DNA from: Candidatus Iainarchaeum sp.
Lineage (GTDB): Archaea; Micrarchaeota; Micrarchaeia; Anstonellales; Bilamarchaeaceae
Assembly (NCBI GenBank): GCA_028686985.1
Contig: JAQUBA010000002.1
Span: forward strand, 84,745-123,075
DNA: 38,331 nt
Direction of reading: 5' to 3'
The position numbers and the translations under genes are program-made. The notes below the pieces were generated by a model. The model was not told the DNA's origin. It was given only the letters and a program-made list of their open reading frames with translations, and did no database searches. Of the stretch, positions 2,541 to 2,929 are shown one piece after another (position 1 is the stretch's first letter; each line of letters starts with the position of its first letter).

Positions 2541-2684
2541 CTAATCAGTGCTCAGCTCCTTCGCCAGGGGCGGCCTGACCTTGAAGAGCACCTTAGCCCC
2601 CGTTGGCGGGAACTCAAATGTCTTCAGGCTGGATATGGTCACCTTGTTTCCGGTCTGCCATTCGTTGTATTCCCCCATCCTCAT
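2541..2684 (-). CDS. Cysteine-less RpoP/Rpb12-like small protein (DNA-directed RNA polymerase subunit P position)
   Basis: 47-codon ORF MRMGEYNEWQTGNKVTISSLKTFEFPPTGAKVLFKVRPPLAKELSTD; ATGA overlap with eL43 stop, stop abuts pcc1 ATG; FPPTGAKVLFKVRPP aligns to the CPYCGYKIIFxxRxP type of archaeal RpoP; shorter than the ORF-track cutoff. Confidence 0.72.
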   Translation of the reverse strand: MRMGEYNEWQTGNKVTISSLKTFEFPPTGAKVLFKVRPPLAKELSTD

Positions 2685-2920
2685 TCACCCTTCTTGTTCT
2701 CCTCGGAGAGCACACGCTTTGCCGTTTCGCCGGCCTCGCTCGTGAGCGAATATGCCGCGCCGGCTATCTTTGCCCCGCAGGACCAGCACTCCCAGAGCGC
2801 GTACGAAACCCTCTTCACCGAGCGCTTGCCGCACTTCGGGCATTCGTACCTCTTCTTTCTCTTGCCCTCGGCCTGCTCGTAGAGCTTCCTGATTTTCCTT
2901 CCGAACCTTGCAGTCCTCAT
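2681..2920 (-). CDS. rpl37ae: Large ribosomal subunit protein eL43 (L37Ae)
   Basis: MRTARFGRKIRKLYEQ..YECPKCGKRSVKRVSYALWECWSCGAKIAGAAY; GGTGTG Shine-Dalgarno before ATG at 2920. Confidence 0.95.
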   Translation of the reverse strand: MRTARFGRKIRKLYEQAEGKRKKRYECPKCGKRSVKRVSYALWECWSCGAKIAGAAYSLTSEAGETAKRVLSEENKKGE

Positions 2921-2929
2921 AACCCACAC

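Follow-up and report, generated by a model that had tools for sequence, protein, structure and literature searches.

An open reading frame of 47 codons in an archaeon of the family Candidatus Bilamarchaeaceae (Micrarchaeota) is very probably the gene for the Rpo12 subunit (RpoP) of RNA polymerase, inherited by direct descent and the only rpoP of its genome, in a lineage where a single event removed the zinc site. Archaeal and eukaryotic polymerases universally contain Rpo12/Rpb12, and the zinc ribbon of this subunit is treated as a hallmark. An rpoP without any zinc-ligand cysteine is present in all 43 species-level genomes of this family (f1), and the same state is found in the neighbouring family f8. 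The gene was read in a stretch of 38,331 nucleotides, the whole of which is referred to here as the window.

The gene and its neighbourhood

The earlier note on this DNA had described a cysteine-less ORF of 47 codons on the minus strand between eL43 and pcc1. The ORF is present as described, and both neighbours were confirmed by Pfam. The features of the locus are as follows.

2541..2684, minus strand: rpoP (Rpo12/Rpb12 orthologue) lacking all four zinc-ligand cysteines; 47 codons plus stop
2678, minus strand: probable rpoP start at codon 3, a second methionine common to relatives
2681..2926, minus strand: eL43 (L37ae), upstream neighbour; Pfam PF01780, 75.2 bits
2298..2540, minus strand: pcc1, downstream neighbour; Pfam PF09341, 44.5 bits
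1976..2314, minus strand: prefoldin subunit, next in the operon after pcc1; Pfam PF01920 (Prefoldin_2), 72.6 bits
2930..3718, minus strand: exosome RNase PH-domain subunit, upstream of eL43; Pfam PF01138/PF03725

Translation of 2541..2684 gives MRMGEYNEWQTGNKVTISSLKTFEFPPTGAKVLFKVRPPLAKELSTD, which contains no cysteine. Upstream of eL43 lie two exosome RNase PH subunits, an S1/KH (Rrp4-like) protein and SBDS. At the other end of the gene the TAG of rpoP directly abuts the ATG of pcc1, a junction that had been claimed and is there in the sequence. A translational link to eL43 had been proposed as well. The first ATG of rpoP does overlap the eL43 stop codon as ATGA, but a start at this place is not conserved: the codon is GTG in two genomes of the same genus and is no start codon in G002 and G004, while the second methionine (MGEY...) is common to the same-genus relatives. 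Judged from this pattern, the true start is probably codon 3 (2678), just past the eL43 stop, which would give a product of 45 amino acids.

Most other genera of the family have a further conserved ORF, beginning M(L/I)TTSRYAS..TR..A.., between rpoP and pcc1, which is absent from the genus of the window. The copy in G010 had no Pfam match at E 0.001; we presume a resemblance to archaeal Brix/Imp4 proteins.

Identity as Rpo12

Profile searches for a match to RpoP, suggested earlier as a check, returned RpoP by three routes. A profile of the cysteine-less sequences aligned with the canonical RpoP of the order by hhalign (prob 98.2, E 6.3e-14), and the alignment is collinear up to the final residue. 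Against all PDB sequences the first match was T. kodakarensis RpoP (E 0.0014) and the second P. furiosus Rpo12 (E 0.017). The only NCBIfam families matched were the RpoP equivalogs, by 34 of 40 members and always weakly, the window protein scoring 11.7 bits where the cut-off of the RpoP model is 89.

The Pfam family PF03604 (Zn_ribbon_RPAB4) matched none of the 40 cysteine-less members at E <= 1 but all 17 canonical relatives. No PF03604 match above the curated cut-off was obtained in the genome of the window, where two weak matches lie under the cut-off and are not RpoP-like. The four-cysteine pattern CX2C...CX2C required by PF03604 is missing from the cysteine-less protein. By its defining ligands the window protein therefore lies outside this zinc-ribbon family; by descent it is Rpo12.

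Gene order points the same way. The position next to eL43 is common to the cysteine-less genomes and the canonical families of the order, where a canonical RpoP follows eL43 (for example MYVCGKCGRTIKSLDEHFVRCPYCGHRIIYKVRAPVAREISTD). The canonical RpoP of other Anstonellales families (G037-G072) occupies the same place and has the same ...RxPxAKEVSTD tail to the last residue, but carries CxxC (or CxxxxC)...CPxCG, which the window's family lacks. Archaeal Rpo12/RpoP more generally (T. kodakarensis 4qiw_P, P. furiosus 8cro_P) is the best match of the window protein by sequence and, weakly, by fold, with the same length, the equivalents of K35 and R37, the RPP tail, a collinear alignment and, within this order, the same place behind eL43. 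What the window protein lacks in comparison are the four cysteines and the conserved arginine before the third of them. Eukaryotic Rpb12/ABC10alpha (RPABC4) is homologous too, but its zinc ribbon is present.

Positions of the lost ligands

Alignment places the four ligand positions and the conserved C-terminal segment on the following codons, residues of P. furiosus P being marked Pfu.

2610..2612, minus strand: codon of F25, third zinc ligand position (Pfu C27), from alignment and conservation
2601..2603, minus strand: codon of T28, fourth zinc ligand position (Pfu C30), followed by the invariant G29, from alignment and conservation
2661..2663, minus strand: codon of E8, inferred first ligand position (Pfu C8), from the weaker alignment in the N-terminal half
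2652..2654, minus strand: codon of T11, inferred second ligand position (Pfu C11), from the weaker alignment in the N-terminal half
2544..2597, minus strand: residues 30-47, equivalent to P. furiosus P residues 32-49, from alignment, conservation and biochemistry (PMC2680338)

A position-by-position match of FPPTGAKVLFKVRPP to CPYCGxKIxxKxRPP, which had been proposed from the letters, is borne out by both the profile-profile and the PDB profile alignments. The latter pairs Pfu K37 and R39 with K35 and R37 of the window protein; K35 is invariant and R37 is conserved in at least 90% of the 40-sequence cysteine-less alignment. The C-terminal ~20 residues are the conserved part of the protein, and the N-terminal half has conserved aromatic and hydrophobic residues, namely a Tyr, a Val/Ile and a Phe-x-Phe-Pro.

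Origin of the N-terminal half

The homology signal falls wholly within the last ~23 residues. When only the C-terminal 22 columns were compared, hhalign gave E 3.6e-16, and the N-terminal halves compared alone were unmatched (prob 0.8%). The C-terminal peptide could accordingly be RpoP while the zinc ribbon before it was not eroded in place but replaced by an unrelated short hairpin, and the peptide of P. furiosus is known to work without the ribbon (PMC2680338). We consider such a replacement unlikely. The N-terminal half has kept its length, both forms of the protein having 43-45 amino acids in total, and the pairing with RpoP in the PDB spans both halves with one gap of two residues.

Structure prediction bears on the same question. 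An AlphaFold (AF2) model built from the cysteine-less sequences only, of mediocre quality (pLDDT 71, pTM 0.38), has a predicted N-terminal hairpin with strands at 4-8 and 14-17, at the site expected for the first knuckle. When this model was searched against 350,542 PDB chains the top two matches were archaeal RpoP and spanned the full length, with values that are individually non-significant (prob 0.77 and 0.63, E 0.45 and 0.88). When five sequences were used to model a canonical relative, the result was no better (best E 0.51), so the weak E-values can be put down to the small size of the protein. The equal length, the PDB pairing, the predicted hairpin and the full-length fold matches together make up the case for the N-terminal half and are suggestive of homology with the first zinc knuckle. 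The idea that the ribbon fold persists without metal, raised before this analysis, is suggested by the length, the hairpin and a weak fold match, while the N-terminal half has no sequence homology of its own to add.

Conservation and selection

A protein search for the window ORF took in 59 related genomes. The conservation in relatives that had been proposed as a check was found throughout the family, and at every eL43 locus read the cysteine-less rpoP adjoins eL43 directly. The window and G004 copies of the gene are separated by nine silent changes and no replacement, and the mean pN/pS of the gene over 11 genomes is ~0.14. The gene is under purifying selection. A chance ORF is ruled out by this conservation and pN/pS, and a sequencing or assembly artefact by the recurrence of the same state in dozens of MAGs from unrelated isolates and projects; the genomes are all uncultured MAGs.

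These values also bear on whether the polymerase of the clade works without Rpo12, the gene being a decaying remnant that is drifting away. Further erosion in genus g28 of f8 (G055, G080: ...VKKKPDGPVEVSTD or similar) would fit such a drift, as would the three g28 genomes in which the profile missed the protein and the need to read G052 by synteny. In the window's family, nevertheless, the gene is conserved over its full length and under strong purifying selection, which makes decay very unlikely.

It is equally doubtful, if not slightly more so, that zinc or another metal is still bound through other side chains. A few members of the alignment do have scattered cysteines, at columns 36 and 44, and acidic residues are conserved at 43 and 47. 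The 40-row alignment, however, has no conserved Cys or His column, and the two acidic columns sit in the tail and are common to the canonical form. No f1 copy that was read carries cysteine at any of the zinc-ligand positions.

Distribution and a single loss

We compared the two forms across the 84 genomes of the order with one profile for each. The cysteine-less profile scored 54-94 bits in 43 of 43 genomes of f1; in f8 it matched more or less eroded copies in 7 of 10 genomes, at 40-78 bits. The canonical profile scored 78-97 bits in all 31 other genomes; in f1 and f8 it reached only 18-32 bits, at the cysteine-less locus or at chance sites. Wherever rpoP was found in f8 (8 of 10 genomes, with G052 read by synteny) it was cysteine-less. 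Across the 303 genomes of the phylum a canonical match at E <= 7e-8 was obtained in 236 of the 250 outside f1 and f8, and the 14 outside without such a match are all less than 90% complete. Fourteen of the lowest-scoring or nearest outsiders were read: thirteen (including G100, G101 and G190) have the full set of four cysteines and the other, G133, has an unrelated match only, so that no intermediate with half the ligands was seen among them.

A canonical rpoP elsewhere in the genome of the window, which would have pointed to a different reading, was looked for and none was found. That such a gene exists, and that the window ORF is a paralogue which has diverged and serves a different function, is hardly credible: absence from this one genome proves little by itself, as it is 85% complete, but the profile scan gave no second, canonical RpoP in any of the 43 + 10 genomes of the clade, and it is the cysteine-less gene that is found at the ancestral position of rpoP. 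A displaced canonical copy is likewise ruled out by the scans of genome, order and phylum.

In a tree of RpoB' all cysteine-less genomes lie on one side of a single branch (support 100/100). When 17 genomes outside the order were added and the tree was rooted on distant ones, the cysteine-less genomes again formed one group (SH-aLRT 95), which adjoins the canonical family f18. Since the canonical state is found everywhere read outside the group, the cysteine-less state is a loss. The best explanation is a single loss of the zinc site in an ancestor common to the window's family and f8, with no later regain; two independent losses are unneeded, as one branch of the RpoB' trees suffices.

RpoP has eroded further in the smallest genomes, those of f8 genus g28 (0.5-0.6 Mb). 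G055 and G080 no longer have the RPP motif, for example ...ILVKKKPDGPVEVSTD, and the profile did not find RpoP in G081 and G082 of this genus.

Other zinc proteins of the machinery

Within the clade RpoN (CFxCG...CC) and TFB keep their zinc cysteines, the zinc cysteines of eL43 in the window are intact (CPKCGK...CWSCGA), and the RpoB' copies of f1 and f8 read through the clamp keep the clamp cysteines with the exception of G015. Among the machinery proteins read, the loss of zinc cysteines is specific to RpoP. General zinc avoidance is ruled out by the proteins just named, the RpoB' of G015 being the sole exception seen; its clamp site reads CPEC...CRLSKTDKG, in which the second cysteine pair is partly lost.

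RpoB' offers no obvious compensation for the change in RpoP. It has three clade-specific columns, uninterpretable without contact data, and no column that is strictly conserved elsewhere yet lost in the clade. In most of these archaea rpoB is split, with a B' of ~615 codons, and an open frame of ~1100 codons in G050, G052, G057 and G018 suggests an unsplit or fused rpoB there. The C-terminal domain of RpoB' was not found in the window's own assembly, which is consistent with its 85% completeness.

A possible mechanism

The function of the subunit has been studied in P. furiosus, where RNA polymerase lacking P assembles and is recruited but forms no stable open complexes (Reich et al. 2009, PMC2680338). 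Residues 32-49 of P, supplied as a synthetic C-terminal 17-aa peptide, bring back the formation of open complexes, together with 80% of the single-round activity (PMC2680338). In the same study the C27/30S protein was incorporated loosely and gave 14% activity, and R26A was nearly silent (PMC2680338). In yeast Rpb12 the first cysteine is essential, and mutating the others gives temperature sensitivity (PMC2680338, citing Rubbi 1999); eukaryotic Rpb12 and archaeal P can replace each other both in vivo and in vitro (PMC2680338). The window protein had been described as a subunit at the TFB interface. It is an RNA polymerase subunit, but the TFB label is loose: the contacts described for Rpo12 are with Rpo2 and Rpo3, and the role described is in promoter opening (PMC2680338, PMC13257274).

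The window protein retains the equivalent of Pfu 32-49 and lacks the four cysteines and R26. We suggest that the cysteine-less subunit still wedges between Rpo2 and Rpo3, and that the conserved strand and tail at its C-terminus (GAKVLFKVRPPLAKELSTD), in which a Lys and an Arg are near-invariant, would stabilise the open promoter complex. Removal of two cysteines badly impairs P of P. furiosus, so some compensation must be needed in this clade. The N-terminal half may fold as a metal-free beta hairpin in which the conserved Tyr, Val/Ile and Phe-x-Phe-Pro would take the place of zinc, anchoring this half in the polymerase.

Significance

The window protein can be seen as the natural counterpart of the C27/30S protein and 17-aa peptide of P. 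furiosus, in that the peptide is kept without a zinc site. The natural protein differs from these laboratory constructs in having kept its N-terminal half and reshaped it under selection. That a ribbon can work after its cysteines are lost is shown by the zinc-free paralogues of zinc-ribbon ribosomal proteins in bacteria, but as a rule these are second copies that serve when zinc is scarce. The cysteine-less rpoP is instead the only copy, in cells where cysteines are retained in the other zinc proteins of the machinery.

A search of the open-access literature, with subscription papers outside its range, returned no earlier report of a cysteine-less Rpo12/Rpb12, and a 2026 survey of archaeal RNA polymerase evolution does not mention zinc, cysteine or Micrarchaeota. 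Cysteine-based models miss the gene, PF03604 entirely and the equivalogs by falling under their cut-off, so that genomes of the family may be wrongly described as lacking Rpo12. The role of the Rpo12 ribbon relative to the C-terminal peptide has so far been based on one archaeal in-vitro study, and a natural lineage without the zinc site but with the peptide makes this division of labour between ribbon and peptide directly testable.
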